Source: a virus
Virus record (IMG/VR): IMGVR_UViG_3300020205_002915
Location: 1-36,092 of that record
DNA length: 36,092 nt
Reading direction: 5' to 3' (one strand)
Shown here: one piece after another, positions 2,715 to 36,092 of the stretch
Numbering within the stretch: position 1 is the stretch's first letter
Layout of the letters: every line of letters starts with the position of its first letter
Made by a program: the position numbers and the translations under genes
The notes under the pieces: generated by a model
What the model was told of the DNA's origin: nothing
The model's database searches: none
Seen by the model: the letters and a program-made list of their open reading frames with translations, nothing else

Positions 2715-3142
2715 TTTGGAGCCTCTGCTGCTTGGTTGTGAGCTTGAATAAATTCTTTTGGTAGCTCGCATTGTCCACCAGGAGCAAACTTTATATCATA
2801 CTTGACAATTTCACGATCAATATACTTTACGATATCCTCACCACGTGTCTTGATGTATTCGGTTTTCTTTACAACCTTTTCAACTATCTTTACGTTTTCC
2901 TGAGCGGATTCAACAGCTGCTGCCTCAACTTTGGCTTCCATCTCTTTTACTCTTGCAACCCATGCATCGTTATCATATATGGCACCAGCCATAAACAATC
3001 CAGCAACGAAAAAAGCCGCACTAGCGGCTTGGATAGCAGTCTTATATGGGCCAGGTATGAATTTACCTACCAGTAGCCCAACAAAACCAATTAAAAGGAT
3101 TGCGTAAAAAATCCAATCAGGTAGAAACTTTAGAACCCACAT
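2711..3142 (-). CDS. Inner-membrane spanin-like protein (i-spanin)
   Basis: A 143-residue protein with two N-terminal hydrophobic segments (about 8-28 and 37-56) followed by a long charged helix, roughly residues 60-110, with heptad-like Ala/Val/Lys/Glu spacing that should form a coiled coil. It ends with GGQCELPKEFIQAHN, a tail resembling Rz-like proteins of T4-like marine phages as I recall them. The next gene starts within its stop codon and encodes a lipoprotein, as expected for a spanin pair. It differs from classical Rz in having two rather than one membrane span. Confidence 0.7.
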   Translation of the reverse strand: MWVLKFLPDWIFYAILLIGFVGLLVGKFIPGPYKTAIQAASAAFFVAGLFMAGAIYDNDAWVARVKEMEAKVEAAAVESAQENVKIVEKVVKKTEYIKTRGEDIVKYIDREIVKYDIKFAPGGQCELPKEFIQAHNQAAEAPK

Positions 3143-3293
3143 TTACAGGCTTTCTTTTAAACATCTTATTCATAATTGCTTTGCGACCTCCAGGCTCACC
3201 CTTTGGTCCAAAACCAATACCCTGTACATTACCAGCTCCCACAGCGTTTATAGCAATACCTGCCTCTTCTACAAACTGTTTAAACGTTTTCAT
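3117..3293 (-). CDS. Small internal-head candidate with capsid-targeting-like N-terminus
   Basis: A 58-residue protein whose ATG overlaps the TGA of the upstream gene (ATGA) and whose end overlaps the i-spanin start by 26 nt. The start MKTFKQFVEE followed by Ala closely resembles the ten-residue capsid-targeting sequence of T4 internal proteins, which is cut after Glu10 by the gp21 prohead protease. The rest is Gly-rich then strongly basic (Arg/Lys-rich near residues 35-50), which fits a DNA-binding internal peptide. No enzymatic motif is seen. Function is inferred; the reading frame is supported by tight overlaps on both sides. Confidence 0.6.
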   Translation of the reverse strand: MKTFKQFVEEAGIAINAVGAGNVQGIGFGPKGEPGGRKAIMNKMFKRKPVNVGSKVST

Positions 3294-3682
3294 ATATCTC
3301 TTAATACTTCTACTATGTTGTCATCCATGTGGATATCTGAGCTGGTAATATTCTTATTCTCTATTCCGATATTATAAACTATATCAGGCATATATCCCAT
3401 CAACACAAGAAAGGGTTTTATGAAATGATAATGACCTTTCAACTTTAAGAACAACATCCGTGTTGCTGGCTCAGCTCCAAAGATGTTATACAGAACAGTC
3501 AAATGATTAACTATTAGTCTTTCCTTTAACTCCCCCGTCTCTTCATACCTATTAAACAAACGTTTTATGTATTTGAAACGATTCAAATCATCGTAAAACT
3601 CAACAGTATCATAGCAGTGTGGGTTATCATAATGTTTCGCTGCATATAACAAAAAATTACTTTCATCAAGTTTTTCACGCAT
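3290..3682 (-). CDS. Conserved T4-like phage protein, unknown function
   Basis: A 130-residue soluble protein rich in aromatic and basic residues. From memory it resembles a small protein conserved in marine T4-like phages (a DUF7207-type protein: start with a Tyr-Ala-x-Lys-His-Tyr-Asp block, then a Tyr-Ile-Lys-Arg-Leu helix and an ELKERLIVNHL helix). I know no function for it. It is 3 nt from the virion-protein gene upstream, and its TGA overlaps the next start, so it belongs to the late operon. It has no signal peptide or membrane span. Confidence 0.65.
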   Translation of the reverse strand: MREKLDESNFLLYAAKHYDNPHCYDTVEFYDDLNRFKYIKRLFNRYEETGELKERLIVNHLTVLYNIFGAEPATRMLFLKLKGHYHFIKPFLVLMGYMPDIVYNIGIENKNITSSDIHMDDNIVEVLRDI

Positions 3683-3685
3683 ATA

Positions 3686-3979
3686 TTAAAAAGTACTAAT
3701 TGCAGCCCTCACCCATGTGTTGTTAGCCACACAGAGATAGATGTGTGATGAACTAAATGTTATTTGACCTTTTGTTCCAGCAGAGTTAGCCAACGCTGGA
3801 ACAGCTTCTCTTACATGAGATGCATAGATGTTCGCGCTATTGGCTCCTAGTAAAGACGCTATTGTTACACTTTTGGTAACAGCATTGCTACTAGGAGCAT
3901 CAACAACAATTGTCAGGTCATCGCCTGACACTGCTGTCAGAGTAGGTAACTCTGTTATTTTCTTAGCGCGATCAGCCAT
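3686..3979 (-). CDS. Small virion/fibre-type structural protein
   Basis: A 97-residue protein with the pattern seen in small virion proteins of T4-like marine phages: an N-terminal KKITELPTLTAVSGDDL block followed by IVVDAPSSNAVTKSV, then an Ala/Ser-rich middle and a C-terminus of short beta strands (TKGQITFSSSHIYLCV, NNTWVRAAI) like the end of fibre or whisker proteins. It is likely a beta-rich trimeric attachment or head-decoration piece; which one is not clear. It is 3 nt downstream of another structural gene and shares its late promoter at 4518. Confidence 0.6.
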   Translation of the reverse strand: MADRAKKITELPTLTAVSGDDLTIVVDAPSSNAVTKSVTIASLLGANSANIYASHVREAVPALANSAGTKGQITFSSSHIYLCVANNTWVRAAISTF

Positions 3980-3982
3980 TTA

Positions 3983-4486
3983 TCAAGTATCCGCAACGGT
4001 TACATCGTCACCAGCATCGCTAGCAACTGCTTGAGTCATGCTACGCATTGCAACAAGTGTCTCAACACGAGTGCGGCCTGCTGTATTATTGATGCGAACC
4101 CATCCTGGTGTTTTGATTCCGTTTGCACGGTTGGCAGCAAGCTGAGCTTCTGTTACGTCAACACCCACATAATCAATAGGACGCATACCAACGTGCGTAC
4201 CAGTGATATACTTTGGACCCGATTGAATCCAAATCGTAGCAGCAACGTTTGATGTTGAAGCATACGTACGGTCTACCGTTAACGACGTACCGTTAGCAAT
4301 AGCAGTTACACGATAACGTGTATTTGCTGCAGCAGCAGTGTTTGCTGTAGAAAGGAAGATGTTATCACCAACATGAATTTCCGTATCAAAAGTAGTTGAT
4401 GAGTTTGCGGTAATAGTAGCACTACCATTTGTCAGTTTTGCAGTTCCCGTAAGGACTGTCTTATCTGTTTTTCCCCATAGTGGCAT
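3983..4486 (-). CDS. Virion structural protein (beta-rich, WGKTD start)
   Basis: A 167-residue protein starting MPLWGKTD, a start I recall in structural proteins of T4-like marine phages. It is rich in Thr, Ala, Asn and short alternating strands (TGTAKLTNGSATITANSST, GDNIFLS), with no charge clusters or membrane spans, typical of virion beta-sandwich proteins. A near-perfect SD (AAGGAG) lies about 8 nt before ATG, and AATAAATA sits 32 nt upstream, so this is a late gene with its own promoter. The exact virion position is unknown. Confidence 0.65.
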   Translation of the reverse strand: MPLWGKTDKTVLTGTAKLTNGSATITANSSTTFDTEIHVGDNIFLSTANTAAAANTRYRVTAIANGTSLTVDRTYASTSNVAATIWIQSGPKYITGTHVGMRPIDYVGVDVTEAQLAANRANGIKTPGWVRINNTAGRTRVETLVAMRSMTQAVASDAGDDVTVADT

Positions 4487-4517
4487 TTTTCTCTCTCCTT
4501 GAGATTATTGTTTTAGT

Positions 4518-4525
4518 TATTTATT
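4518..4525 (-). promoter_or_regulatory. T4-type late promoter for the 4486-3686 structural genes
   Basis: The minus strand reads AATAAATA, one base from the T4 late consensus. Transcription would start near 4512, giving a leader of about 25 nt that contains the AAGGAG ribosome site of the next gene. The box lies at the very end of the preceding gene. Confidence 0.55.
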
Positions 4526-4739
4526 AGTCTTCTAAAGTCAGCATATCAAGGAGATACTGTGACTTTTTACCAATTCTGCGTTCTTTACCGTTAACATATA
4601 GACGAGTCTCGCCATCGCGACCAGCATATTGCTGTGTTGCATTATCTCTTAGACGCTGATTCTCTTTACGCAACTCATCTTCTGAATTACGTTGATTTTT
4701 TACAATCAAGCGCGTTGCATCTGTAACGATAATCGCCAT
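4524..4739 (-). CDS. Small coiled-coil protein, unknown
   Basis: A 71-residue protein with a short hydrophobic start, a charged helical middle (residues 18-36, alternating Glu/Arg/Asn/Leu) likely to form a coiled coil, a beta-like ETRLYVNGKERRIG stretch and an acidic end. No family is recognised. It lies 8 nt after its upstream neighbour, inside a block of late head-associated genes, so a structural or assembly role is likely but unproven. Confidence 0.5.
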   Translation of the reverse strand: MAIIVTDATRLIVKNQRNSEDELRKENQRLRDNATQQYAGRDGETRLYVNGKERRIGKKSQYLLDMLTLED

Positions 4740-4747
4740 GGTAGTCC

Positions 4748-4957
4748 TTATTCAGCTTTTGGTTTGATATGCTTAATCTTAGCGCCCATCTCTGTAGCAT
4801 CATCCAGGTGAGTGTCAGTTAGGTGCTCACCAACTTTGATACCATCACCTAGATGGCTACCAACAGCATGCACCTTATACTTACCACCACCTGCATGAGA
4901 AACATGCAATGCCATAGGATGAACAGTTTCTTCTGTAAAAACTTTAAATGACTTCAT
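4748..4957 (-). CDS. Small internal-head candidate with capsid-targeting-like N-terminus
   Basis: A 69-residue protein beginning MKSFKVFTEE then Thr, with Met1, Phe4, Phe7 and Glu10 placed as in the T4 capsid-targeting sequence. The remainder is rich in His, Gly and Lys and has no catalytic motif. A protein of this size with such a tag would be processed in the prohead and remain in the capsid, possibly being injected. The start is 1 nt past the preceding stop. Function is inferred from the tag and the neighbourhood. Confidence 0.55.
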   Translation of the reverse strand: MKSFKVFTEETVHPMALHVSHAGGGKYKVHAVGSHLGDGIKVGEHLTDTHLDDATEMGAKIKHIKPKAE

Positions 4958-4958
4958 A

Positions 4959-5903
4959 TTACATTGCTTTCTTTTTCTTTTTGTGCATCATGTGATCTTC
5001 GGAAACAAGAACTTCGATGTCTTTTGTCTCTACACGATGGATACCTTCAGCGAACATGACATCATACCATGCAATGTTACCTTGTGCATCTGGTTCTGCA
5101 TGCTGACTTGTTAGCGTACGGCCTTCACCAAACTGCTCAGACTTAACATGGATAGCACACTGGTGTGTACTGTTTCCAGGTGTATCGGTGTTTTCTTCCT
5201 TGACAGCTTTTCTTCTTTCTCTGTCTTGACGTCTCTCATCAGAATCCTTACCAGTTCCATCATCGAAAGTACTTGACTTACGGGTGTACTGTGTAACACC
5301 AGGCTTAATTTCTTTTTTATCAAATTTGCCAGTGCCTTTATTAGCATTGACAGATTTCATCATATCATCCCAGCCCTCTTGAGTCTGTTCTGTTTCTTCT
5401 TTAACACCACCTGCTTTAAGCATAGCAATACGGTCACGATATCCAGCAACACCTGGCTTAATATCTTTTGCAGCCTTCTTTAATGCAGGTGATGCATTAG
5501 GAATGTGTTTCATTGTTGTAGCAGCCTGATGACTCATTGCTTCATCTTGCTGTTCTACTTCTTCTTTCTTCATACCAACACCGCGAGCCTTCATTACATC
5601 GCCAAATGTAATGCGCTTTTTATGACCGTGCATTGCAGCAAGTTCTTTTTCACGTGGTGTCTTAGGAATGCTACCCTCAGCTTCGGTAACAATTTCTTCT
5701 TTGACATTCTTTGTTGTCATCTTCTGAGTGGTTGACGAAGCGGCAGGCTCTGCTTTAGGTGCAGGCTGCGTTGGCATCTTCATTTGTTTACCAGCCATCT
5801 TCTCATGCAAAGCGTTTTGTTCTTCAACAAACTTTGCACGTGACTTTTGGTTAATTTCTGCAGCAGCGGCCACAAGTTTTGCGGATAGGTCCTTAATCAT
5901 CAT
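4959..5903 (-). CDS. Highly charged protein, possible prohead core or internal protein
   Basis: A 314-residue, low-complexity, Lys/Glu/Met/Gln-rich protein: helical N-terminus with many Ala and Glu, a disordered middle with several EE(I/V)-type runs and repeated short blocks (KPGV followed by Y, three times in variant form around residues 145-210), then a better-ordered C-terminus (about 240-300) and a terminal Lys run. This composition is typical of phage scaffold or prohead core proteins. AAGGAG lies 2 nt before the first and 5 nt before the second of two adjacent ATGs, so translation may begin at 5900. No family is recognised. Confidence 0.6.
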   Translation of the reverse strand: MMIKDLSAKLVAAAAEINQKSRAKFVEEQNALHEKMAGKQMKMPTQPAPKAEPAASSTTQKMTTKNVKEEIVTEAEGSIPKTPREKELAAMHGHKKRITFGDVMKARGVGMKKEEVEQQDEAMSHQAATTMKHIPNASPALKKAAKDIKPGVAGYRDRIAMLKAGGVKEETEQTQEGWDDMMKSVNANKGTGKFDKKEIKPGVTQYTRKSSTFDDGTGKDSDERRQDRERRKAVKEENTDTPGNSTHQCAIHVKSEQFGEGRTLTSQHAEPDAQGNIAWYDVMFAEGIHRVETKDIEVLVSEDHMMHKKKKKAM

Positions 5904-5909
5904 TACTCC

Positions 5910-6110
5910 TTATGCGTTATCTATGATTTTTCTTTGAATTTGAATTTTTCTGTTCTGGGCTTGAACAAGCTCTTGATCATTTGGCTCCGCTGGTACAGCG
6001 TTTGCACCTTTACGATCAAAAACTGATCTAATAGCGTGATTCAGTACTTTGTACTGCGAGCGATCTACACTATTACCCATCTCTTGCATTATCGTACGAA
6101 ATGTTTTCAT
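5910..6110 (-). CDS. Small internal-head candidate with capsid-targeting-like N-terminus
   Basis: A 66-residue protein beginning MKTFRTIMQE then Met, matching the pattern Met1, Phe4, hydrophobic 7, Glu10 of the T4 internal-protein targeting tag. The body is basic at first (Arg/Lys) and ends in a Gln/Lys/Ile-rich helix (QAQNRKIQIQRKI). Its ATG overlaps the TGA of the dps-like gene (ATGA), so the two are translationally coupled. Function unknown; packaging in the head is a prediction from the tag. Confidence 0.55.
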   Translation of the reverse strand: MKTFRTIMQEMGNSVDRSQYKVLNHAIRSVFDRKGANAVPAEPNDQELVQAQNRKIQIQRKIIDNA

Positions 6111-6553
6111 TGTTCTATTCCTTTAAGAATGGAACGCAACATCCACTGATGCTTCTTATGAGCAACAATACGGTCTTGTAAGAAATTAGATAATCCAATC
6201 TCTGTATAACGCTCTGCTAATCTAAATGCTTCCATAATACATGTTATAACTTTATTATTATCATTATACAAATTACGGAACATTACCATTGCATCAGGTG
6301 CAACTTCTGTCTCGTCAAGTGTTGTTAGTTCAGCAATACGACGAGGACCCAAAGGAGCATATGCATCCAATGTACGAATGAATTCGCCAATATTATCGAT
6401 AACACCATCAATTTCTACATAGAGGTCACCAAGAAAGTCGTGATACTGAGGAAAATTGTTACCCTCCACGTTCCAGTGGTACTGTTGTGCTTTCATACCG
6501 AACGCAACATTGTCGGCAAGATACACTTTCATTTGTTGAATAAGTTCTTCCAT
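6107..6553 (-). CDS. dps: Dps-like ferritin (DNA-protecting ferroxidase)
   Basis: A 148-residue four-helix protein. The Dps ferroxidase signature is visible in helix A/B: QQYHWNVEGNNFPQYHDFLGDLYVEID, read here in parts as YHWNVEG (His ligand), FPQYHDF (second His) and the Asp/Glu of LYVEID. Length and helix pattern match bacterial Dps, which forms dodecamers, binds or shields DNA and oxidises iron with peroxide. It is embedded between an internal-protein candidate and an unknown late gene, and downstream of a TATAAATA late promoter, so it is made late. It lacks the ten-residue head tag itself. It may protect newly made or packaged DNA from Fenton damage. Confidence 0.85.
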   Translation of the reverse strand: MEELIQQMKVYLADNVAFGMKAQQYHWNVEGNNFPQYHDFLGDLYVEIDGVIDNIGEFIRTLDAYAPLGPRRIAELTTLDETEVAPDAMVMFRNLYNDNNKVITCIMEAFRLAERYTEIGLSNFLQDRIVAHKKHQWMLRSILKGIEQ

Positions 6554-7422
6554 TATTTCTTTTCCTGTGGTTGCTTTGGCTTCAATAATTCTTCGGCACG
6601 CTTCTCCGATGCTTCACGTGATTGCCTAATACGCTCAAGTGCTCTTTGCATTCTAATGGCTGGCGAAGATGCTTCTGCCATTTGCTTTTCCTTCTTATTT
6701 AACACTTTGTTTAGAATCTTTTCACCATCCTTGACTGCTTTTTTGGGTGTGATTATTTTAGCAGAGTATTCTTTTTTGCCGCCTTCATCGTTGCTGCCAT
6801 CACGCCCCGGAGGAGTTTGGCTCTTGTCCATTTCAGATACAATATCTTCTTTCATATAAGAATGATACTTTTGAGCAAGATGTTTCTTTGCTTGCATCTG
6901 ATCACTTGTTGAATGCTTAACTTGGCCTTTAGAATTGACAACATGGAACATTGTCTTACCATTGTATACATTCTTTTCACGTTTGATGTGCGGACGCATT
7001 GCGCCACCAGTACCTTTGATACCAACACGTTCTACAATTGGTAATAAGTCACAGTCTTCTACCATTGCTGCACCACCGGCAATGAAAGAATTGACACGGT
7101 TCATGGCATACTGCTCACGTGTCAGATTTGAATTTAGTGGAAGTGTTTTGTATCCGCGTGTGTAGACTTGTATAACGGTTTCTTCTGGCAATTCAGCACT
7201 ACTGGCTTTTGCGTTGAGAACAATCTCTGTCTTTTTTTCTAGAATTACGGTATGTTTTGCCAACGCAACTTTAAAGCGTTCTTGAAATCCACGTTGTGGA
7301 TCTAGTTTTTCTGGCGGATTGATAATGACCTTAGTATTCTTACCGGTCTTTTTTAGTGAAATTGTTTTTTTGTCATCAGTTGCCGCTGGTGCAGCTGAGT
7401 CTTGATCTTTTACTTTATCCAT
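6553..7422 (-). CDS. Lys-rich late protein, unknown function
   Basis: A 289-residue hydrophilic protein. The first 45 residues look disordered and basic; residues 45-165 appear folded, with short strands and GGAAMVEDCDLLPIV; the C-terminal third (about 190-289) is disordered to helical and dominated by Lys, Glu and Arg. No motif identifies it. It is the first gene after two late-promoter boxes (7459 and 7488) and ends 1 nt into the dps-like start, so it is a late gene possibly in the head or prohead. Its ribosome site GAGGT is part of the palindrome ACCTCGAGGT just before the ATG. Confidence 0.6.
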   Translation of the reverse strand: MDKVKDQDSAAPAATDDKKTISLKKTGKNTKVIINPPEKLDPQRGFQERFKVALAKHTVILEKKTEIVLNAKASSAELPEETVIQVYTRGYKTLPLNSNLTREQYAMNRVNSFIAGGAAMVEDCDLLPIVERVGIKGTGGAMRPHIKREKNVYNGKTMFHVVNSKGQVKHSTSDQMQAKKHLAQKYHSYMKEDIVSEMDKSQTPPGRDGSNDEGGKKEYSAKIITPKKAVKDGEKILNKVLNKKEKQMAEASSPAIRMQRALERIRQSREASEKRAEELLKPKQPQEKK

Positions 7423-7458
7423 TTGTACCTCGAGGTTTACCTTGGCCTAACTCTGGTC

Positions 7459-7466
7459 TATTTATA
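7459..7466 (-). promoter_or_regulatory. T4 late promoter (perfect TATAAATA)
   Basis: A perfect T4 late octamer on the minus strand. The start would fall near 7453, leaving a leader of about 30 nt before the ATG at 7422. It likely drives the head-associated block 7422 to 4524. Confidence 0.75.
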
Positions 7467-7487
7467 ATTTCTTACTATAGACATATA

Positions 7488-7495
7488 TATTTATT
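7488..7495 (-). promoter_or_regulatory. Possible second, tandem late promoter
   Basis: AATAAATA on the minus strand, followed by TATATATG, 29 nt upstream of the perfect late box. It could be a second start for the same operon. It is in an AT-rich gap, so chance is possible. The gap 7423-7521 otherwise shows no gene; no convincing plus-strand promoter for the methyltransferase is seen. Confidence 0.35.
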
Positions 7496-7521
7496 GTATC
7501 TAAACCAAATTAAGGTAAGTT

Positions 7522-8055
7522 ATGCCAAGAAGTTCAAAAAACGGTAAAGTATGGACTAAACAGCGTATTACACAGCTTATTACACAGCCAAGCAACATCC
7601 TTGACATTGGGTGTGGCCAAGGAACTTATAAAAATCTATTCAAAGACAACAAAGTTGTATCAAAGTCTAATTGGGTAGCCGTTGAGGTTTGGGAGCCATA
7701 CATTGAAAAGTATTCATTGACAAAGAAGTATAGTAGTGTAATTAATGAAGACGCCAGACAACTTCGATGGAAAGAGTTGGGAATGTGGGATTTGGTTTTT
7801 ATGGGTGACGTTTTAGAGCATATGACAAAGGAAGAAGCACAACAATTAGTTGCCCAAGCATTGGAATACACACGTTGGATACTAATAAGCATTCCTATTG
7901 TCTATCTACCTCAAGGTAGAGATGACGACAACCAATATGAAATTCACGTTAAACCAGACTGGTCCGATAGTGAGGTACGTGAATCGTTTCCTAATATTGT
8001 AGCATACCACATAGAAGGTATTATAGGAGTATACCTACTGCATGGCCACGCATAG
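7522..8055 (+). CDS. Class I SAM-dependent methyltransferase
   Basis: A 177-residue Rossmann methyltransferase. Motif I reads ILDIGCGQGTY (about residues 26-36), motif II has VAVEVWEPY, and the later WDLVFMGDVLEHM is the post-motif acidic strand and helix typical of small-molecule or sugar methyltransferases. No DNA-recognition domain or DPPY motif is present, so a DNA N-methyltransferase is unlikely. It is one of only four plus-strand genes in the window, ends 2 nt from the convergent stop of the 610-residue gene, and has AAGG about 7 nt before ATG. It looks like an inserted single-gene cargo; the substrate is unknown. Confidence 0.8.
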   Translation: MPRSSKNGKVWTKQRITQLITQPSNILDIGCGQGTYKNLFKDNKVVSKSNWVAVEVWEPYIEKYSLTKKYSSVINEDARQLRWKELGMWDLVFMGDVLEHMTKEEAQQLVAQALEYTRWILISIPIVYLPQGRDDDNQYEIHVKPDWSDSEVRESFPNIVAYHIEGIIGVYLLHGHA

Positions 8056-8057
8056 AT

Positions 8058-9890
8058 TTATTTGTGACCCATCCCTTTACGGACATCATTCATCATTTCT
8101 TTTGCGTGAGCGTCCGAGACGTGCGCCGGGACTCCTTTGCGGAACTCTTTAAAATTACCTTTTGCGGCATGATCTCGCATTTTAGTGCCAGACATTCCTG
8201 TATCACCTTCTGCATCGGCGTCGCGTTCTCCGGAAGAATGAACAGTAATTGATTTGAAGTTGTATTCTCCATGCTTTTCCTTCTTTCCATTATATTTGTC
8301 AAGTAATGCTTGCATCTCGTGTTGACGATCAGAGCCAGCAACGACGTGCAAGTGCTTGATACCAGCCTTGTGCATGTCTGCAGCCTGGTGGAGAATAGTT
8401 GGTTTATCTTTATCAGCAGCAACTACATGAGAGCCTTTAGGGAAAGCTCTAAGTGCATGCTTAACTTTTTCATCTGTGGAGAGAGGATTTTTCTTTGCGT
8501 CTTGTGATGCAGACAGTACAATTTTGTGATCTGCTTTATTACGCTTTGCTACTTCTTGTACTTTTTCAGCAACTTTAGCATGACCAGATGTTGGAGGATT
8601 CATGCGACCGAATGCAAGAACACCGTGCTTCTCTTCTTCTTGTTTCTTTTCCTTAGGAGCATTCTTATCGGCCATTTCTTTTGGTGCATCACCAGGACGT
8701 GGACGAGCAGCAAAGTTAGCAGCACTGAAGTCAGAACGGTCAACAAGTTTGGTAGGACGTCCGTCTACAGTAACGACAGAACCTTCACTCTTTGCTGGTT
8801 GTAACTTACCTTCTTGGTCTGTCTTATATGTTGTGAAGTCACCTTTAACAGCCGGCTCCATTGCATGGATCAATGTATTTTTTGCTTTCTGTATATGGCC
8901 GTGTAACTCAAGAGCGTTGTTAAGATGTTTCTTATGTTGATCAACTTGCTTAACTGATAAATCGAGAGCCCTTTGACGGGTAGCCTTACCAGCTGGTGTC
9001 TTTAGCTTATCAATATCCTTCTGACCTTTTTCTTGAACGTGAGCTTTGTATCCAGCAACTGATGGAGTGCTGCTTTCACGCACTGTCTTGTTAATGTATG
9101 TCTTGAGGTTTTCCTGATGCTGTTGGATTGCATCGTATCCTTTATCCTTACTGATACGCTGATGCACCGCTTCTGCATTGTTCATGTGAGTATGGAATTC
9201 ATCCGATGTCTTCTTATTGAAGGCAGCCTTTGTTGCATCAATAGTTGGCTTAATCATATGAACATCAGAATGTTCTTTGAATTTATTTAAGTCTGGCTTA
9301 AAGTCAGCCTTCATCCCCTCAAGATCTTTACCCTTGTACTGTGTGTGTACAACTAATCCAAACTTTGATTGTTCAATCTTACGACCTTCTGGCGAAGTTT
9401 TCTTTACACCGTATGTAAGTGTGTTTGGTTTAAAGTGATACTCATCACCGTTTGACTTGACATCACCCTTACCCGAGTGCATTACATCACCCTGATACAC
9501 TCCTTTGTCTGGAGCAATCTTTGGAAGATGTTTGAGTGCATGCTTTAGCTTCTCAGCAAGCCCCGGAACGTTTCCGTGATTCTTTTCAATATCTTCAGGT
9601 GTATGATTAATTTTGGGATCTTTATTAAAGGCAGACTTACTTGCAACAAAGAACTTACCTGTCGTTGGATGGTGTCCAAATACAATAGAAGGGGAACCAT
9701 CATACTTTGTTGTGATATGAGCATCCTTCCCTCCACCAGACATTGCCTGGTGCACAGAGTGCAATGTCTTTGCTGCATGAACATAGCCTTCTTTACCAGC
9801 ATTGATATGGTGGTCTTCTGCATGCTCAAGATGCTTTAGTTTGTCTTCCGAAGCCACAGCTTCAGATAAAAAGTATTGAAATGATATCAT
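8058..9890 (-). CDS. Fusion: ligase-like KxDG nucleotidyltransferase plus HxGH adenylyltransferase, head-tagged
   Basis: A 610-residue two-domain protein. The N-terminus MISFQYFLSE then Ala fits the T4 capsid-targeting/gp21 cleavage pattern (Leu-Ser-Glu at 8-10). Residues 55-190 and 365-385 resemble a DNA/RNA ligase nucleotidyltransferase core: TKYDG (K62 as possible adenylated Lys), FFVASK, GVYQGDVMHS, SEGSVV (E369) and KLVDR. After a charged linker (395-420), residues 422-575 form a cytidylyltransferase-like domain: FGRMNPPTSGHAKV (TSGH, 434-437) and MSGTKMR (566-572), as in NMN adenylyltransferase. His/Lys-rich throughout. Its ATG overlaps the stop of the upstream gene (ATGA). I recall similar proteins (DUF6267-like) in T4-like phages, with no known role. 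NAD-related chemistry or nucleic-acid end repair inside the virion or injected into the host are possible. Confidence 0.75.
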   Translation of the reverse strand: MISFQYFLSEAVASEDKLKHLEHAEDHHINAGKEGYVHAAKTLHSVHQAMSGGGKDAHITTKYDGSPSIVFGHHPTTGKFFVASKSAFNKDPKINHTPEDIEKNHGNVPGLAEKLKHALKHLPKIAPDKGVYQGDVMHSGKGDVKSNGDEYHFKPNTLTYGVKKTSPEGRKIEQSKFGLVVHTQYKGKDLEGMKADFKPDLNKFKEHSDVHMIKPTIDATKAAFNKKTSDEFHTHMNNAEAVHQRISKDKGYDAIQQHQENLKTYINKTVRESSTPSVAGYKAHVQEKGQKDIDKLKTPAGKATRQRALDLSVKQVDQHKKHLNNALELHGHIQKAKNTLIHAMEPAVKGDFTTYKTDQEGKLQPAKSEGSVVTVDGRPTKLVDRSDFSAANFAARPRPGDAPKEMADKNAPKEKKQEEEKHGVLAFGRMNPPTSGHAKVAEKVQEVAKRNKADHKIVLSASQDAKKNPLSTDEKVKHALRAFPKGSHVVAADKDKPTILHQAADMHKAGIKHLHVVAGSDRQHEMQALLDKYNGKKEKHGEYNFKSITVHSSGERDADAEGDTGMSGTKMRDHAAKGNFKEFRKGVPAHVSDAHAKEMMNDVRKGMGHK

Positions 9891-30099: not shown

Positions 30100-30668
30100 T
30101 GCCACTCCTTCATTATACTATCCATAACATATCTAACTCTTTGCTTTAGATAATCCATATCACCATCATTCATAAGCACCTTATCAACTAAGTGATCATC
30201 AAAAGCTCTTTCTGTAATATGACCATCATACTGGTATTGAGGTCTGATTATTTTAATGATCTTTGCACCAAGGCCTTTGAGTACACTATATTCATTATCA
30301 AAACGTAGATCCGTTACAACCCACAAATCAGAAGGTAGGTGTCTGATCTCATTGACAACATAATTAGTGAACTGCTTCTCATCATATCGACGCATCAACA
30401 TACCAATTTCACGAACTATATGTCTTCCCGCAACAACACGAGAAACAGACTCATCAATATTGAAGTAAGATGATGTCCGTTTAAAAGCATCATACTGATC
30501 ATTGTCTGTCGAGTCCAAATCAAAGATATGCTGTACTTCCTTTTTAATAGGATCAGCAAATGCAATCGTATGTACGTTGTACTTGAAATACATTTCTTTA
30601 ATCAACTGACCAACAGTATCCTTACCGGATCCCTTTGGTCCAGTAAGAGCAATAATCTTTAAACTCAT
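30096..30668 (-). CDS. Deoxynucleoside monophosphate kinase (gp1-like)
   Basis: A 190-residue P-loop kinase with Walker A GPKGSGKDT (10-18), a helical lid and WVVTDLRFDNEY (Walker B region), as in T4 gene 1 dNMP kinase. It phosphorylates dNMPs for DNA synthesis and could act on modified nucleotides. It is coupled at both ends (ATGA). Confidence 0.88.
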   Translation of the reverse strand: MSLKIIALTGPKGSGKDTVGQLIKEMYFKYNVHTIAFADPIKKEVQHIFDLDSTDNDQYDAFKRTSSYFNIDESVSRVVAGRHIVREIGMLMRRYDEKQFTNYVVNEIRHLPSDLWVVTDLRFDNEYSVLKGLGAKIIKIIRPQYQYDGHITERAFDDHLVDKVLMNDGDMDYLKQRVRYVMDSIMKEWQ

Positions 30669-31516
30669 TTCTTCCTACTTAGAGCATCGATATAGTTAAT
30701 GTTGCTAAACACATTGGCTATATTATGCGGCTGCAAGTGAGAAAAGTCAACTTCTTTTTCAAATTTACCATTCATCAAACCAGTAGGCGAGTCATCAAAC
30801 AATACATCGTTGATACCAGCCCATACTGCAGCACTCGAATCCCATGAGAAGATATACCTGTGGTATTCACGTAACAGGTCAATCTCTTTAGGACCATCAA
30901 CCATTCCCAAGCAATGAAAACGCTTATCAGCCAAAGGACCAAGTAGGTTACGTTTTTCGAGCTCTCTAAAGATATTCAAACGAGACAGATAACGTTGCAT
31001 CTTGTATGCATCACTACGCTTGCCACCTTCAAATGTTGACTCGTCAACACCGCATGCAATAGGTGCACCAAGAATTGATAACCCAATTATATCAATCGAT
31101 TCGTGATTCAATCCCCACTCAATGCAATTGATATAGTCACTCATATCACCAAGATTACTTTGCGGAACAAAGAATGTATCGAACCCTGCAGCTTTAAATT
31201 CAGGAATCAACCTCTTAGCTGCATCTGTTGTACGTTGAGAGTGTTGCTTGGGATAGTCAGATAGAACAATACAATCTGCCTTACATGCAGTGCCCATCTC
31301 AATCAGCTTATCCGATTCATACATATCGCGACCGAGCTTAAACATCTCAAAAGCACTGTTGTCCATAATCTTATACTTACCGTCATCAAGATTAGCATAG
31401 TATTCACAGTACTCTGGATCTTCTTCAACAAGATGAGCCAACAGCAAGTGAGCACCATTCGTATTGGTATATCTTTGTAGATAGGGTGTGGGGGAGATAT
31501 GACAAAAATTAAGCAT
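30665..31516 (-). CDS. DpdA/TGT-like guanine transglycosylase
   Basis: A 283-residue TIM-barrel protein that reads like a tRNA-guanine transglycosylase without the zinc domain. MDNSAFE (51-57) aligns with the TGT DSGGFQ block (D52 as base-binding Asp), GLSILGA (145-151) with GGLAVGE, and CLGMVDGPKEIDLL followed by FSWDSSA places D226 where TGT has its nucleophile. Phage DpdA enzymes exchange guanine in DNA for preQ0-type bases. Genes folE, queD, queE and a precursor transporter nearby support that role. I chose ATG 31516 over one at 31540, which lacks a site. A tRNA substrate is less likely but not excluded. Confidence 0.7.
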   Translation of the reverse strand: MLNFCHISPTPYLQRYTNTNGAHLLLAHLVEEDPEYCEYYANLDDGKYKIMDNSAFEMFKLGRDMYESDKLIEMGTACKADCIVLSDYPKQHSQRTTDAAKRLIPEFKAAGFDTFFVPQSNLGDMSDYINCIEWGLNHESIDIIGLSILGAPIACGVDESTFEGGKRSDAYKMQRYLSRLNIFRELEKRNLLGPLADKRFHCLGMVDGPKEIDLLREYHRYIFSWDSSAAVWAGINDVLFDDSPTGLMNGKFEKEVDFSHLQPHNIANVFSNINYIDALSRKK

Positions 31517-31919
31517 TATAAATTCTCCAACTAATTTCATCTTTCATAGGGAAGTACATACGACATCCATTCTCACCGTCTTCGGATACTTCAATCACAT
31601 AATCGCGGCCAGGCCACTTTTCAATTACTTTACTGTAAAGATCCTTTGACATCATTTCACACGACTTATAGTCCAAAGAAAGTGTGCCATCTTTATACCA
31701 GCTCTCAAGCCAACGTTTGAACTGAATAAACTCAACATCCCTGTCATCATGAAACACTTCCATCTCTACACGAAAATGGAAAATATGCCTGTGTGGTGTC
31801 CCGAGGAAGCTGACATCTAACCAGTCACCCGTGGCAAGCGTTGGATCAGTAGCAGCTGCAGGGTACCTGTGAATACCTTCTTTCTGAAACGTCACCCAAA
31901 TAAAACTTTTACTTTCCAT
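31509..31919 (-). CDS. Possible T-fold (QueD/PTPS-like) protein
   Basis: A 136-residue protein. PHRHIFHFRVEMEVFHDD recalls the His-x-His strand of the tunnelling fold of QueD and GTP cyclohydrolase, and SCEMMSKDLYSKVIEKW then DYVIEVSEDGENG recalls the later helix and Glu-bearing strand. It lies between the DpdA-like gene and an oxygenase/folE, so it may be a second pterin or deazapurine enzyme. The family call is tentative. Confidence 0.45.
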   Translation of the reverse strand: MESKSFIWVTFQKEGIHRYPAAATDPTLATGDWLDVSFLGTPHRHIFHFRVEMEVFHDDRDVEFIQFKRWLESWYKDGTLSLDYKSCEMMSKDLYSKVIEKWPGRDYVIEVSEDGENGCRMYFPMKDEISWRIYNA

Positions 31920-32466
31920 TAAATAGCTCCCAATGATTTGAAGTAAACCTGAACGAGGCGGTTATCCTAACTCTATCTGTCTCGTTCACAACCGCATGTA
32001 GTATATCATATCTGACAGCGGTTGGCAAGTTAATTTTAATTCTATGTGTTTCCACAACATCGCTGTACTTGTACTTTTTGTATGGGCAACCATTAGGTAA
32101 TTTTAAAATCTCAGGTGTGGCATCATTCTTTTCCTCAAAGAATGCTGTAAATGTTTCTTCGCAGTTGAATACAGGCCAGTTGATTGCAATCTTTTGATCT
32201 GGATTAGGCATTACGTCAGTATGAGGAAAGTTGGGAGCAACACTTACTGGCAACGCCCTTATAACAGCCATTGAATAGAAGTCTATCAAGTTATGACGAA
32301 CGAATAAATCCTTCAGGCTAGGTATTGCTTCATACACACGTGCAGCACTTATCGGATTAAAGAATGTACCCCTTTCAATAAGCCCTGTCGATTTAATAAA
32401 CCGTTGAAGTTCTTTTGTATAAACATCCCACGGCTCATCCCAATCTAAATGATTGAATGGTTTCAT
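31909..32466 (-). CDS. 2OG-Fe(II) oxygenase-like protein
   Basis: A 185-residue protein with a cupin-like core: FPHTDVM (H82, D84), AINWPVFNCEETFTAFFE, and DILHAVVNETDRVRITASFR with H157 and R165/R167. This is the HxD...H...R layout of 2OG-Fe(II) oxygenases. It overlaps folE by 4 nt and the T-fold-like gene by 11 nt, so it may act on a deazaguanine or other modified base; that is inference. No close family is recognised. Confidence 0.6.
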   Translation of the reverse strand: MKPFNHLDWDEPWDVYTKELQRFIKSTGLIERGTFFNPISAARVYEAIPSLKDLFVRHNLIDFYSMAVIRALPVSVAPNFPHTDVMPNPDQKIAINWPVFNCEETFTAFFEEKNDATPEILKLPNGCPYKKYKYSDVVETHRIKINLPTAVRYDILHAVVNETDRVRITASFRFTSNHWELFNGK

Positions 32467-33137
32467 TTCATACGCGCCGAGTTTAAGAACTCGCGACGCA
32501 GCTCAGAGTCGATAGTCGCAAATGCACCACGCGTAGCCAATGTCATTGTAGATGATGTAACGTCTTGGATTCCTCGCGATTTAACACAATAGTGGACTCC
32601 TTCGATGTATACAGCAACATCCTCAGAGCCAGTAATAAACATAATTGTTTCTGCAATCTGCTCAGTCAAACGTTCTTGCACTTGAGGACGCTTAGAGAAG
32701 AATTGAACAATACGATTCAACTTAGACAAACCAAGAATGGTCTTCTTGGGAATATATGCAACAGTAGCTCTACCATCAATCACCACAAAGTGGTGCTCAC
32801 AATTAGACTGAACATTAATGTTACGCTCAAGAACAAAACTGTTGTTCTCTCCCATCTTGTTTTCAATTTTTGTGCACTTAGGAAAATTATCATAGTTTAA
32901 ACCAAGAAAGATTTCACGGGTGTACATTTTAGCAACACGGTTGGGGGTGTCTATCAACGAGTCATCGGTAAGATCCAATCCTAACTCTTCCATAATTGCA
33001 GTGAAGTGCTTTGCAATATTTTTAATCTTTTTTTCTTCTTTTGCCTGCACTTGCTCATAGTTCATAGGTGTCTCAAGTCCTACACTAACCAAATGCTCAT
33101 GTACCTGTTGTCCTAGTGCTGCGTCTGTTTTTTCCAT
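32463..33137 (-). CDS. folE: GTP cyclohydrolase I
   Basis: A 224-residue FolE. Signatures: TPNRVAKMYTRE, NCEHHFVVIDG (zinc Cys and His), ILGLSKLNRIV, and GVHYCVKSRGI with the second zinc Cys. It makes dihydroneopterin triphosphate from GTP, the first step to preQ0/7-deazaguanines (also folate). In this setting, with queD and queE nearby, the deazaguanine route is likely. GAGG lies about 6 nt before ATG. Confidence 0.95.
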   Translation of the reverse strand: MEKTDAALGQQVHEHLVSVGLETPMNYEQVQAKEEKKIKNIAKHFTAIMEELGLDLTDDSLIDTPNRVAKMYTREIFLGLNYDNFPKCTKIENKMGENNSFVLERNINVQSNCEHHFVVIDGRATVAYIPKKTILGLSKLNRIVQFFSKRPQVQERLTEQIAETIMFITGSEDVAVYIEGVHYCVKSRGIQDVTSSTMTLATRGAFATIDSELRREFLNSARMK

Positions 33138-33149
33138 TTTGATCCTCGT

Positions 33150-33734
33150 TTAAAAATGTAAGCCTGGATAGGCATTTACGATTTGTGATTTGTGTATCAT
33201 TTCGTTAATGAAATGTCTAACCTTATCTCTGTGCTTATAGCTTGAAAATGATTTATATCGTCCTTCGCGATAATACACACTTTCTTCATAGAAGTCAATT
33301 TCTTTATTGAATTTTTTACAATAATTGAACATACAAACAGCTTGATAGACATGCGTCTTAATATAGATACAAAGTATATCAAAGGGGGTATCCATTTGTA
33401 TCAAAAGATTAGCAAAAGAAAGTAACCATTGTTTTTGATTTTTTCTTGCTACGAAGTAATCTGCTTTCTCGTATATCCAATGTGAGTTAGTACCATTGAC
33501 AAGGACTACAATATCCTTTGAATAAATTTTGTGCAGGTTATCAAAGAAACTATCCATAGTAAACATTGGTTGGTTACCAAGTTCGTGTATGGTGTTTTTC
33601 CAATTATTACCTGCCAAGTTGAAAGGCTCAATATAAAGAGGCATCAACTCATTGATAAATGTTGCATTGTGTAGCCTTGCAATGTCTTGTGCAAATATTG
33701 TACCACCAGAGCGAGGGGTTGCACATACTATCAT
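33150..33734 (-). CDS. Sulfotransferase-like P-loop protein
   Basis: A 194-residue protein starting MIVCATPRSGGTIFAQDI, where PRSGGT (7-12) is the 5'-phosphosulfate-binding loop of PAPS-dependent sulfotransferases. A KADYFVARKNQKQW region follows and the C-terminus is basic/aromatic. It could move sulfate from PAPS to an unknown acceptor. It is the gene after the CysC-like fusion and a small gene, so donor synthesis and use may be linked. The rest of the fold is too divergent to be sure. Confidence 0.6.
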   Translation of the reverse strand: MIVCATPRSGGTIFAQDIARLHNATFINELMPLYIEPFNLAGNNWKNTIHELGNQPMFTMDSFFDNLHKIYSKDIVVLVNGTNSHWIYEKADYFVARKNQKQWLLSFANLLIQMDTPFDILCIYIKTHVYQAVCMFNYCKKFNKEIDFYEESVYYREGRYKSFSSYKHRDKVRHFINEMIHKSQIVNAYPGLHF

Positions 33735-33940
33735 TTTTTTGCGGGCTTCGGAGGAAAGTTAGGAAATGTGCCCCATGGCTGTCTCAATTCATCAGACACA
33801 TCATCAGGCCCACCGATATCAACCCACATTTTAGATATAACTCTTGTGGAGTTACCGTTAACAATAACATAACGAACCAAGTATTCTTCATAATCGTAGG
33901 TACCATCAGGTACCCACTTAAATTGCTGAAACGTTGTCAC
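33731..33940 (-). CDS. Small protein, unknown
   Basis: A 69-residue protein starting at GTG 33940, overlapping the TGA of the CysC-like gene (GTGA), and ending in ATGA overlap with the sulfotransferase-like gene. It has a beta-rich start with several Tyr and a Pro-rich basic tail. Not recognised; its tight coupling suggests a role with these neighbours. Confidence 0.55.
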   Translation of the reverse strand: MTTFQQFKWVPDGTYDYEEYLVRYVIVNGNSTRVISKMWVDIGGPDDVSDELRQPWGTFPNFPPKPAKK

Positions 33941-34728
33941 TCTATGCCCAAATCTTTTCTAATCTTTGTGGCACTAATATCAGTGACACTTTTATCAAAG
34001 CTTTCCTGTTCAATCTTGTACCCAACATCACGTCCATATGTAATATTAACAATGTTTGGAACAACTTGAATAATGTACTGTCCCTGATAAAGAGGGTCAA
34101 GATCTCTCCTAATAAAGGCCTCGACCTTTGCAATCTCAAATGGATTGCTATTTTGCCATCCCTGACAATCACGAATTTGAATGACTACCTGACCAGTCTT
34201 TGCTATTGCTCTTTCAAACAACGCCCTATGACCCTCATGCCATGGCTGCCAACGACCGAGCATTTGAACAGTTTCTTTTTGCCAGTTGAATGAGGGTCGT
34301 CTACGATTATCAATAAGATGATCGGAAATAAACATGGACCATTTTACAGAATCTTGTTCATTGATTCTGAAATCATACACCACGGGTTCAATGAACGCTT
34401 TGTTAGTATCAGCGTAGCGTCCTTCACGAATAGTATCAACCCAAATGATCCAATCAGCCTTGTAGATGTTTCGCATCTCAACTAATGGAGCAACGAAGTC
34501 AGCAATAACAAAATCGTAATGCTGAAACCTGTCAGCCATCTCACGCATTCGTTTTGCTTGCCTGATGCGCCCGGCCTCTGAGAAGTCCCAATCGTTGTAT
34601 TCTTCTCGTACTTTATCAGCATTAAGCCAGCCGACTATCTTACCTGCTGACTCTAATTGTTTCTTTAAGTCCAATGCCAGAGTCGTTTTACCCGACCCTG
34701 GCAAACCCATGATAAGGATACGTTGCAT
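33937..34728 (-). CDS. Fusion: APS kinase-like (CysC) plus HxGH nucleotidyltransferase
   Basis: A 263-residue two-domain protein. Residues 1-115: P-loop GLPGSGKTT (8-16), NADKVR (37-41), DFSEAGRIRQ and FVIADFVAP, the order of APS kinase blocks, though the usual Asp-Gly-Asp is Asn-Ala-Asp. Residues 156-263: LGRWQPWHEGH (HEGH, 164-167), PNIVNITYGRDVGY and ISATKIR (251-257), a cytidylyltransferase/ATP-sulfurylase superfamily site. It may make PAPS, or another activated nucleotide, for the nearby sulfotransferase-like protein. It lies 2 nt after the transporter gene. Confidence 0.75.
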   Translation of the reverse strand: MQRILIMGLPGSGKTTLALDLKKQLESAGKIVGWLNADKVREEYNDWDFSEAGRIRQAKRMREMADRFQHYDFVIADFVAPLVEMRNIYKADWIIWVDTIREGRYADTNKAFIEPVVYDFRINEQDSVKWSMFISDHLIDNRRRPSFNWQKETVQMLGRWQPWHEGHRALFERAIAKTGQVVIQIRDCQGWQNSNPFEIAKVEAFIRRDLDPLYQGQYIIQVVPNIVNITYGRDVGYKIEQESFDKSVTDISATKIRKDLGIE

Positions 34729-34730
34729 TG

Positions 34731-35354
34731 TTATACAGCTTCCGTTGGTTTATTAAGTTTATTTTGCAAATGATTTAGTAGCAGACCGTAAGCTGGGAGA
34801 ATAACTACCAAGCTGACAAGGATTTTACTAATGCTGTTGTTTGTTGCAACAATGTGCCAGTTAGCGGCCATGAATTCGTTTGCGCCATATGCAAATGCTG
34901 TAAAGAAGAAAACGTAAGTATCAATAAACGTAGATGCTACCGCACTAATTGTTGGTGCATACCACCACGTCGAATACTTCTCTCTGATATACTGGAATAC
35001 ATACACATCGAGTAAGTTACTAATGAAATATGCCATACCAGAACCAAGACCAATTCTGAATGCAACTGAGTCCGGTGCGCCACCTAACTTAACAACAACC
35101 ATTGATACAATGATAGCTGGAAGGAAAGCCAATGCAATTACAGCTCGCCCTGTTTCCTTACCTAATAACCTTACAGTCAAATCAGTAAGAACAACTACAA
35201 GTGGAAATGTAAAAGCAGCCCATGCAAGCGGTGCTCCAAATACACTAAACTTAAATTGTACAATATAATTGCTAACAGCAATAATTAAAACATGAGCAAG
35301 CATCAACTTAAAAGCTAACGCACGATCTACACCATTTAAAATTTTATCTAACAT
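34731..35354 (-). CDS. yhhQ: Queuosine-precursor transporter, YhhQ/VUT family
   Basis: A 207-residue membrane protein with about six hydrophobic spans and family signatures: VVVLTDLTVRLLGKETGR and SNLLDVYVFQYIREK, then an ASTFIDTYVFF span. YhhQ imports preQ0/preQ1. In the phage it would raise the deazaguanine supply made by FolE/QueD/QueE. It lies 2 nt from queD and from the CysC-like gene. Confidence 0.88.
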   Translation of the reverse strand: MLDKILNGVDRALAFKLMLAHVLIIAVSNYIVQFKFSVFGAPLAWAAFTFPLVVVLTDLTVRLLGKETGRAVIALAFLPAIIVSMVVVKLGGAPDSVAFRIGLGSGMAYFISNLLDVYVFQYIREKYSTWWYAPTISAVASTFIDTYVFFFTAFAYGANEFMAANWHIVATNNSISKILVSLVVILPAYGLLLNHLQNKLNKPTEAV

Positions 35355-35356
35355 TA

Positions 35357-35896
35357 TTAAACTCCTTCAAATAAATCTTCATTCCACTCACGATGGCCTT
35401 CACGGAAAGCCATATTGGATTGGGTCTCGCGCACTTCAACACGGAAGCACCATAGTCGTTCAGCCTCACTAGGACCCCAATGGTCGGGAATATAAACACC
35501 ATTGACAAACTTATACAATTGATCTGCAAGACCTTCACATCCCAATTTAGGGAGGATTGTCAACTTTGCAAGCTTCCGACGCTCAAGCTCTTTGTATATT
35601 TCAAGCTCAGGATCATCTTCTGCGACTAGCAACGTATGATCAAATTGATCTTCAAGTATACCCTTAAGATCTTTGAGGCCACCATAATCTGCCGCCCAAT
35701 TACGAACGTCCAGATTATCTGTTCCAAAATAAAACTTCATAGAGAAGCTGTATCCATGAATCAAGTTGCAATGACTATCCGCCCTCCATTGACGATACGC
35801 ACAAGGAAAAGAGTCGTGATACTCCTTCGTTGAAACATATTTGTACTGGCGAGCTGAGCGCCAAGGATGTGTTTTGTATTCGTCTTCTGTATTCAT
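35357..35896 (-). CDS. queD: QueD-like 6-carboxytetrahydropterin synthase
   Basis: A 179-residue T-fold protein. SHCNLIHGYSF (41-51) is the Cys/His catalytic-zinc block, YGGLKDLKG (71-79) the substrate strand, FDHTLLVAED (85-94) the LDH-type block, and VRETQSN the late Glu. It should turn dihydroneopterin triphosphate into 6-carboxytetrahydropterin. Odd: two positions where canonical QueD has zinc His (FxAAH and HGH) read PCAY and HGY, so zinc binding may be through another set, as in a subfamily I recall in phages. I placed the start at 35896, 1 nt after the queE stop; a longer frame is inside queE. Confidence 0.85.
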   Translation of the reverse strand: MNTEDEYKTHPWRSARQYKYVSTKEYHDSFPCAYRQWRADSHCNLIHGYSFSMKFYFGTDNLDVRNWAADYGGLKDLKGILEDQFDHTLLVAEDDPELEIYKELERRKLAKLTILPKLGCEGLADQLYKFVNGVYIPDHWGPSEAERLWCFRVEVRETQSNMAFREGHREWNEDLFEGV

Positions 35897-35897
35897 T

Positions 35898-36092
35898 TTA
35901 AGTACCCATTGTGTTACCCCAGATGTGGACGTGCACTCGTGAGGTATAGTTGTAACCACGCTTAAATGCCTCTGTGGCAATATGCGCTTCGCCGATATAA
36001 CCAGCTTCGGTTCCTTTTTGAGCCTCAAGTGTTGCACCAACACCCATCACCCACACAGGATATGTCACGCCTGCTTCACGGAACTTAGCTAA
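35898..36092 (-). CDS. queE: QueE-like radical SAM protein, C-terminal part only
   Basis: The last 64 codons of a gene whose start lies outside the window. The end SRVHVHIWGNTMGT matches the C-terminus of 7-carboxy-7-deazaguanine synthase (compare B. subtilis QueE, which ends in LHTLLWGNKRGV). The stretch GYIGEAHIATEAFKRG fits the preceding helix. The radical SAM Cys motif is not in the window. It precedes queD by 1 nt, the expected pathway neighbour. Confidence 0.75.
   Translation of the reverse strand, partial: LAKFREAGVTYPVWVMGVGATLEAQKGTEAGYIGEAHIATEAFKRGYNYTSRVHVHIWGNTMGT

Follow-up and report, generated by a model that had tools for sequence, protein, structure and literature searches.

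Do several proteins encoded on one fragment of phage DNA share an N-terminal label that would send them into the phage head? The question is raised by IMGVR_UViG_3300020205_002915, a virus record from IMG/VR that we analysed over its whole stretch of 36,092 bases (the window; 59 called genes). The window encodes T4-superfamily replication proteins, namely the gp43 DNA polymerase, gp44 clamp loader, gp45 clamp, UvsX and a DnaB-like helicase, which places the phage in that superfamily. An earlier sequence-only reading had drawn attention to four protein starts, MKTFKQFVEE (3293), MKSFKVFTEE (4957), MKTFRTIMQE (6110) and MISFQYFLSE (9890), and all four were found at these positions on the minus strand, each at the first ATG of its own frame. 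It had likened them to the head-targeting sequence of the T4 internal proteins (IPs), and comparison with the T4 ip genes bears out the layout in all four proteins, about ten N-terminal residues with an aromatic or hydrophobic residue at positions 4 and 7. We put at about 0.85 the probability that the window tag is a T4-type capsid-targeting sequence (CTS), with the core F-x-x-[F/Y]-[I/L/V]-x-E at or near the N-terminus, that marks head cargo. This reading is well supported by three independent virion proteomes, in the tables and passages drawn on here, by an untagged ortholog that was undetected in the S-PM2 virion, and by the fit to the T4 positions.

The features on which the argument rests, with protein lengths in amino acids (aa), are as follows.

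3117..3293, minus strand: 58-aa tagged protein, MKTFKQFVEE then AGIAINAVGAGNVQGIGFGPKGEPGG..., directly after the DUF7207 gene (sequence).
3264..3293, minus strand: tag MKTFKQFVEE of the 58-aa protein (sequence; codon comparison with the related locus L003; relatives).
3290..3682, minus strand: DUF7207 gene (phrog_407), directly upstream of the cargo slot (Pfam/PHROGs; slot comparison).
4748..4957, minus strand: 69-aa tagged protein, MKSFKVFTEE plus a small domain (MALHVSHAGGGKYKVHAVG...) (sequence; relative L051).
5910..6110, minus strand: 66-aa protein MKTFRTIMQE..., the weakest tag candidate (sequence).
8058..9890, minus strand: 610-aa tagged enzyme, MISFQYFLSE then A, DUF6267 and a cytidylyltransferase-like domain (open reading frame; Pfam; PHROGs).
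9861..9890, minus strand: tag MISFQYFLSE (F4, F7, L8, E10) of the 610-aa protein (sequence; DUF6267 N-termini; AlphaFold).

The pattern is enriched at gene starts

The pattern M..F..[FIL]..E occurs at 4 of the 59 window genes, where N-terminal composition predicts 0.032 (binomial P 4e-8); with looser residue classes, P for the window starts is 5e-5. The pattern was partly defined after sight of the data, so independent sets weigh more. In related loci (1285 genes once redundancy is removed), 28 N-termini match; shuffling residues 2-25 leaves a mean of 0.8, and 5 of 5368 internal methionines match. The count of 28 is enriched by choice, because these loci were fetched via tagged proteins. In the whole S-CREM2 genome, the pattern occurs at 4 of 219 annotated genes and at none of 846 internal methionines, and a 50-kb scan of SPO1 found it at none of 51 genes.

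The codons of the 58-aa tag provide a second line of evidence. Between the window and L003, seven of its ten codons are synonymously changed and no amino acid is, so selection acts there on the peptide of the tag. The other two tags that could be compared with L003 show 1 and 0 synonymous changes, and their DNA is too alike to inform. A bias of translation initiation was rejected as a cause, since the codons of the 58-aa tag vary while its peptide stays constant.

These data bear on the explanation that the N-termini are alike for a general reason, such as translation-start bias, chance or common ancestry of whole proteins. Methionine is always first, lysine is common, the pattern was spotted post hoc, and UvsX has FKMLVKE near its own start (16863), which we judged to be a chance match. 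The excess over shuffled starts and internal methionines, the constancy of the 58-aa tag peptide, the unrelated bodies of the tagged proteins and the association with virion proteins in three phages make such a general likeness very improbable. Three further candidates were set aside: a pectate lyase (MNFKKWFKE) that matches a relaxed pattern, is not detected in virions and is probably a chance match; S-CREM2 gp175, another relaxed match, not among the virion proteins listed for that phage; and a match inside nrdA, which is not a gene start.

Tagged enzymes are found in published virions

The S-CREM2 set comprises 52 virion proteins (PMC10665884, Table 3; gene record OR473000). The exact pattern is present in 4 of these 52 and in none of the other 167 (Fisher p=0.0029); the four are a SAM lyase (MKDFDSFLEE), a kinase (MKRFDAFLTE), a cytidylyltransferase (MKNFSSFLTE) and gp136 (MQTFSMFFSE). 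Near-matches start virion proteins gp13 (MKDLHSFLTE) and gp15 (MNFSEFNES), and virion gp12, annotated as Cas9, has an embedded ..RFASFMAEA about 18-26 residues in. The relatives of gp12 have embedded tags as well (GFSNFLKEAE, GFSSFLKEAE and GFSSFIAEAD). They also have in common an SRWSRW-type N-terminal motif ahead of the embedded tag. We found no Pfam or NCBIfam family match for gp12 (L044:7704-10313), and its Cas9 annotation looks doubtful.

Further proteomes, to the extent that their listed proteins were consulted, agree with this. The virion cytidylyltransferase of S-SM1 (PMC3037559) starts with MKKFSAFLNEA, the virion NMNAT of S-SCSM1 (PMC9602691) with MKSFLQFLKEA, and the virion kinase of S-CRM01, whose detection is cited in PMC10665884, with MISFDQFLSEK. 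The S-PM2 ortholog of the virion cytidylyltransferase lacks the tag and was undetected in the S-PM2 virion (PMC3037559); the older study of that virion likewise failed to detect several true structural proteins (PMC3037559). Scanned stretches of T4, S-SM1 and S-SCSM1 gave matching annotated gene starts for ipII, ipIII and the S-SM1 and S-SCSM1 virion enzymes only. Clustering places the tag on 16 body families, one of which (pectate lyase) is probably a chance match, and in relatives it is nearly always at the gene start. The tag is thus spread over unrelated bodies, varies in presence and absence, and is associated with published virion proteins.

The proteomes, as described in PMC10665884, are of whole virions and do not distinguish locations within them, so that the tag might bind proteins to the neck, tail or baseplate instead of the head interior. 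We consider this distinctly improbable because the sequence and position match the T4 head tag and the end of the gp23 propeptide, and most tags end in the gp21-type [L/I]-x-E.

Two groups of tagged proteins in related loci are side observations. Tagged 180-aa proteins (MSFKRWLTEQ) lie upstream of DUF6267 in L012:8497-9036, L014:8144-8680 and L032:2560-3099; they have weak ART-PolyVal/PARP matches and are possibly packaged ADP-ribosyltransferases (ARTs). L035:8030-8626 encodes a tagged HAD-like protein (METFKSFILEQ), with a late-promoter-like site, ATTATAAATAAG, just upstream.

The 610-aa enzyme carries a family-wide tag

In the 610-aa protein, DUF6267 spans residues 19-395 (Pfam E 2.6e-93, 313.8 bits against a cut-off of 27), and a cytidylyltransferase-like domain spans residues 425-508 (Pfam CTP_transf_like, E 2e-4); its PHROGs matches are phrog_455, phrog_3041 and phrog_395 cytidyltransferase. 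Of 32 distinct DUF6267 N-termini collected through homology of the body, 25 have the F/L..F/Y..E layout by a hand count. The tag is followed by a linker of variable length and then by a conserved HLEHAED, and all 17 rows of an alignment of tagged and tag-like members keep the tag Glu.

Some relatives encode DUF6267 and the cytidylyltransferase separately, and each can then have its own tag, as in L006 (MKFKTFILTEA, which is longer by one residue, and MDFKTYISEK) and in L021 and L024 (MRFKTFLVEE and MDFKTFLQES). In L027 the cytidylyltransferase has a clear tag (MDFKTFLIES) and the DUF6267 protein a divergent one (MKSLKHFKEE), and in P-RSM6 the cytidylyltransferase is tagged (MITFHVFITEA) and the DUF6267 protein is not. 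The reverse case is found in L030, L010 and L014, where the clear tag is on DUF6267 and that of the cytidylyltransferase is divergent or absent. The window has both domains fused behind a single tag. Tag variation among DUF6267 proteins, the separate tagging of the two enzymes and the spread over body families all mark the tag as a separable element. In the AlphaFold models, residues 1-13 of the 610-aa protein and residues 1-26 of a DUF6267-only relative form a short helix with a predicted local distance difference test (pLDDT) score <50; the predicted position of the tag outside the folded body is as expected for a removable tag.

The DUF6267 body contains KYDG, QGD, PEG and KLVDR in a ligase-like order. 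Across the 17 rows, P360-E361-G362 is invariant and K373/R377 nearly so, alongside K63-x-D65-G66 and Q134-x-D136 (mostly QGD). The assignment to the superfamily motifs KxDG, GD/E, EG and K..R is our own, and on these motifs we propose that the body may be a ligase-like (covalent) nucleotidyltransferase. Foldseek searches with the two AlphaFold models listed T4 RNA ligase 2 and REL1 among the top matches with E >= 0.25 and low template modeling scores, RNA ligases ranking top for one model at no significance. An hhalign comparison of DUF6267 with relatives of T4 RNA ligase 2 was negative, a PDB sequence search returned nothing relevant, and DUF6267 is unmentioned in the open-access literature searched.

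One slot often keeps its tag while the protein behind it changes

The start MK[TS]FKQF of the 58-aa protein is kept in its seven closest relatives; a phage-record search with the protein gave no match. The slot after the DUF7207 gene is often occupied by tagged proteins in relatives, with bodies that differ. The same 58-aa peptide family fills it in L003, L087, L091, L051, L066 and L074. In L098 it holds another protein of 85 aa with an identical tag (MKTFKQFVEE), and in Caulobacter phage Cr30 it holds MKTFKQFFNES on an ART-like body (weak PARP, KptA and ART-PolyVal matches, below curated cut-offs). Untagged genes fill the slot in other relatives. Within the 58-aa family, the L051 protein (MKTFKQFSED) has Asp at position 10, and those of L066 and L074 have MK[TS]FKQF without Glu10 and a Glu-rich sequence downstream. 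A DNA search with the whole region returned short matches only, to Cr30 and cyanophages.

Evidence that weighs against head targeting

Several observations weigh against this reading or narrow it. The window, as a 36-kb fragment, has no head genes; a relative, G001, encodes homologs of gp21, gp22, gp23 and the portal. Many cyanophage DUF6267 proteins lack the tag and begin with the body (P-HM2, S-MbCM7, P-RSM6, S-PM2 and S-CAM1), indicating that the DUF6267 enzyme function needs no packaging. In S-CREM2, a relaxed pattern is found in 5 of the 52 listed virion proteins and in 2 of the 167 undetected ones (p=0.009). Most relatives of the 69-aa domain sit in other, longer proteins that do not carry this tag. 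In the slot of the 66-aa protein, after a Dps-like gene, its relatives start with MSYKSLISTIRVRPVTE.. (MSYKSLISTIR...) without F4, F7 or E10, so MKTFRTIMQE may be a chance match; a relative search with the 66-aa protein itself found none.

Virion detection, moreover, comes from the proteomes of relatives and not of this phage, and virion association by mass spectrometry can include co-purified protein, as passages of PMC10665884 and PMC9602691 point out. The tagged enzymes could then be abundant contaminants of virion preparations, with the tag doing something else in the cell, for instance binding a host or phage factor. Contamination would not pick one common N-terminal motif across three separate studies, and we give this explanation very little credence.

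The four proteins that the sequence-only reading had treated as one cargo set thus fare differently. The 610-aa enzyme most probably is cargo, a strong case made by the family-wide tag and the homologous cytidylyltransferases in virions, and so most probably is the 58-aa protein, for which the conserved MK[TS]FKQF and its slot argue strongly for targeting. The 69-aa protein is probably cargo, on a fair case: L051 has MKSFSQFIAEA on the same domain, and most other relatives are untagged. The 66-aa protein is perhaps cargo, and here the case is weak.

The small proteins of 58, 69 and 66 aa could instead be scaffold or core proteins lost at maturation, the tag acting as a prohead-core docking and protease site. 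In T4, gp21 cleaves the core proteins gp22, gp67 and gp68, and most of this material is removed (PMC9026906); elsewhere the 69-aa domain forms the end of longer glutamate-rich proteins. However, the tagged enzymes of relatives are present in purified virions according to the proteome tables, as are the equally small T4 IPs, and we consider scaffold proteins unlikely.

The end of the tag resembles a prohead protease site

The T4 tag MKTYQEFIAE, on which the comparison was based, is confirmed by the T4 genes: ipII and ipIII start with MKTYQEFIAEA. The ipI product starts with MKTFKEFTST, its MKTFKEF separated from a later ITE. Mutagenesis of the T4 IPIII tag assigned positions 4 and 7 to targeting into the prohead core and positions 8 and 10 to gp21 processing; gp21 cuts after [L/I]-x-E, and Asp at position 10 blocks processing and keeps targeting (PMC9026906). 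The 65-residue propeptide of T4 gp23 ends in FGSFLTE followed by A, the same motif as the tag, and the major capsid proteins of relatives have candidate sites at LFE before A (G001) and LLTE before A (S-CREM2). Among the four window tags, MISFQYFLSE alone has the classical [L/I]-x-E; position 8 is V in MKTFKQFVEE, T in MKSFKVFTEE and M in MKTFRTIMQE. MKTFKQFVEE, with A after it, appears close to a gp21-type site. MKSFKVFTEE and MKTFRTIMQE may be targeted uncleaved or cut elsewhere, because they have no I or L at position 8.

By analogy with T4, a location inside the head, cleavage after Glu10 and injection would follow, the last resting on T4. Late in infection, the tag would dock cargo on the prohead core while the shell is still open. 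A prohead protease of the gp21 type would then cut after the tag Glu in most cases, and the mature cargo would stay beside the DNA inside the head and probably be delivered when the phage next infects a cell.

It seems slightly better than an even bet that FxxF[I/L]xE near the N-terminus is a general loading code of T4 and its cyanophage-like relatives, an exchangeable label that a slot keeps while its cargo changes, giving each phage its own DNA-delivered enzyme set. Examples of such cargo would be the 58-aa peptide in the window, the ART-like protein of Cr30, and the kinase, SAM lyase, NMNAT and Cas9-annotated protein of cyanophages.

Cyanophage proteomes repeatedly list NMNAT-like enzymes and kinases in virions and leave their status as true cargo undecided; the tag offers an entry route. 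Being readable from sequence alone, it predicts more packaged proteins in many uncultured phages and allows a test by point mutation. A mechanism known mainly from coliphage T4 is thereby extended to abundant aquatic phages and large enzymes. The principle of the tag is known from T4; we count as new its occurrence on large enzymes of cyanophage-like phages and the exchange of cargo within a single slot. Among papers naming the capsid targeting sequence, no title or opening of an abstract dealt with cyanophage cargo and the lone cyanophage mention was a reference title, in a search that left subscription papers outside, so earlier notice is possible. The relevant passages of the proteome papers on cyanophage virion enzymes name no targeting signal.

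Other features of the window

7459..7466, minus strand: TATAAATA, a T4-type late-promoter-like site, about 37 nucleotides upstream of the operon 7422-4524 (DNA search).
32463-33137: GTP cyclohydrolase I, in the cluster 30665-36043.
34731-35354: Vut_1 transporter, in the same cluster.
35357-36043: PTPS/QueD-like protein, in the same cluster.

The operon 7422-4524 contains two of the tagged genes. TATAAATA-type sites, with one mismatch allowed, are not above chance in number in the window, and its late-promoter-like character is suggestive by position only. Within this late operon, a Dps/ferritin-like protein (6107-6553) is kept in relatives and may protect DNA, either in the virion or as a late protein. 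Two long Glu/Lys-rich proteins (4959-5903 and 6553-7422) gave no family match; they contain stretches such as IVTE before A and IVSE before M and are possibly prohead-core-like.

The queuosine/7-deazaguanine-type cluster at 30665-36043 suggests modified DNA or nucleotides. Its 291-aa protein (30665-31540) is DpdA-like by eye and has no Pfam or NCBIfam match. A second cytidylyltransferase-like domain, at 33937-34728, is fused behind an APS-kinase-like domain and is untagged.

Comparison with known systems

Prohead proteases also remove N-terminal propeptides from head proteins in the phiKZ-like phage SPN3US, where the propeptides are mostly much longer (PMC5694885); this system is set beside the tag by description, not by sequence. 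T4 Alt, a packaged and injected ADP-ribosyltransferase, is likewise a virion-borne enzyme, and weak Pfam matches point to ART-like bodies behind the tag in Cr30 and in some relatives. The Alt propeptide, however, has 7 residues (PMC9026906), and the 610-aa enzyme matches no ART family. Homologous or similar enzymes with the same tag are listed in the virions of cyanophages S-SM1, S-SCSM1, S-CREM2 and S-CRM01; in the window the cytidylyltransferase-like domain is fused behind DUF6267 with a single tag.

In contrast to the CTS of T4 IPI, IPII and IPIII, the tag of relatives is also borne by large enzymes, of 755 aa in S-CREM2 and of 821 aa in S-CRM01. The stretch ahead of its first Phe can be a residue shorter or longer, the tag can lie about 18-25 residues in, and its cleavage in cyanophage-like relatives is presumed from sequence. 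In other respects the likeness is close. Both are ten-residue N-terminal tags with aromatic residues at 4 and 7, Glu10 and mostly [I/L] at 8, and both are borne by small late proteins of unrelated body. The separation of MKTFKEF from the later ITE in T4 IPI resembles the L066 and L074 proteins with their Glu-rich stretch, and MKTFKEF of IPI is one residue apart from MKTFKQF of the window.

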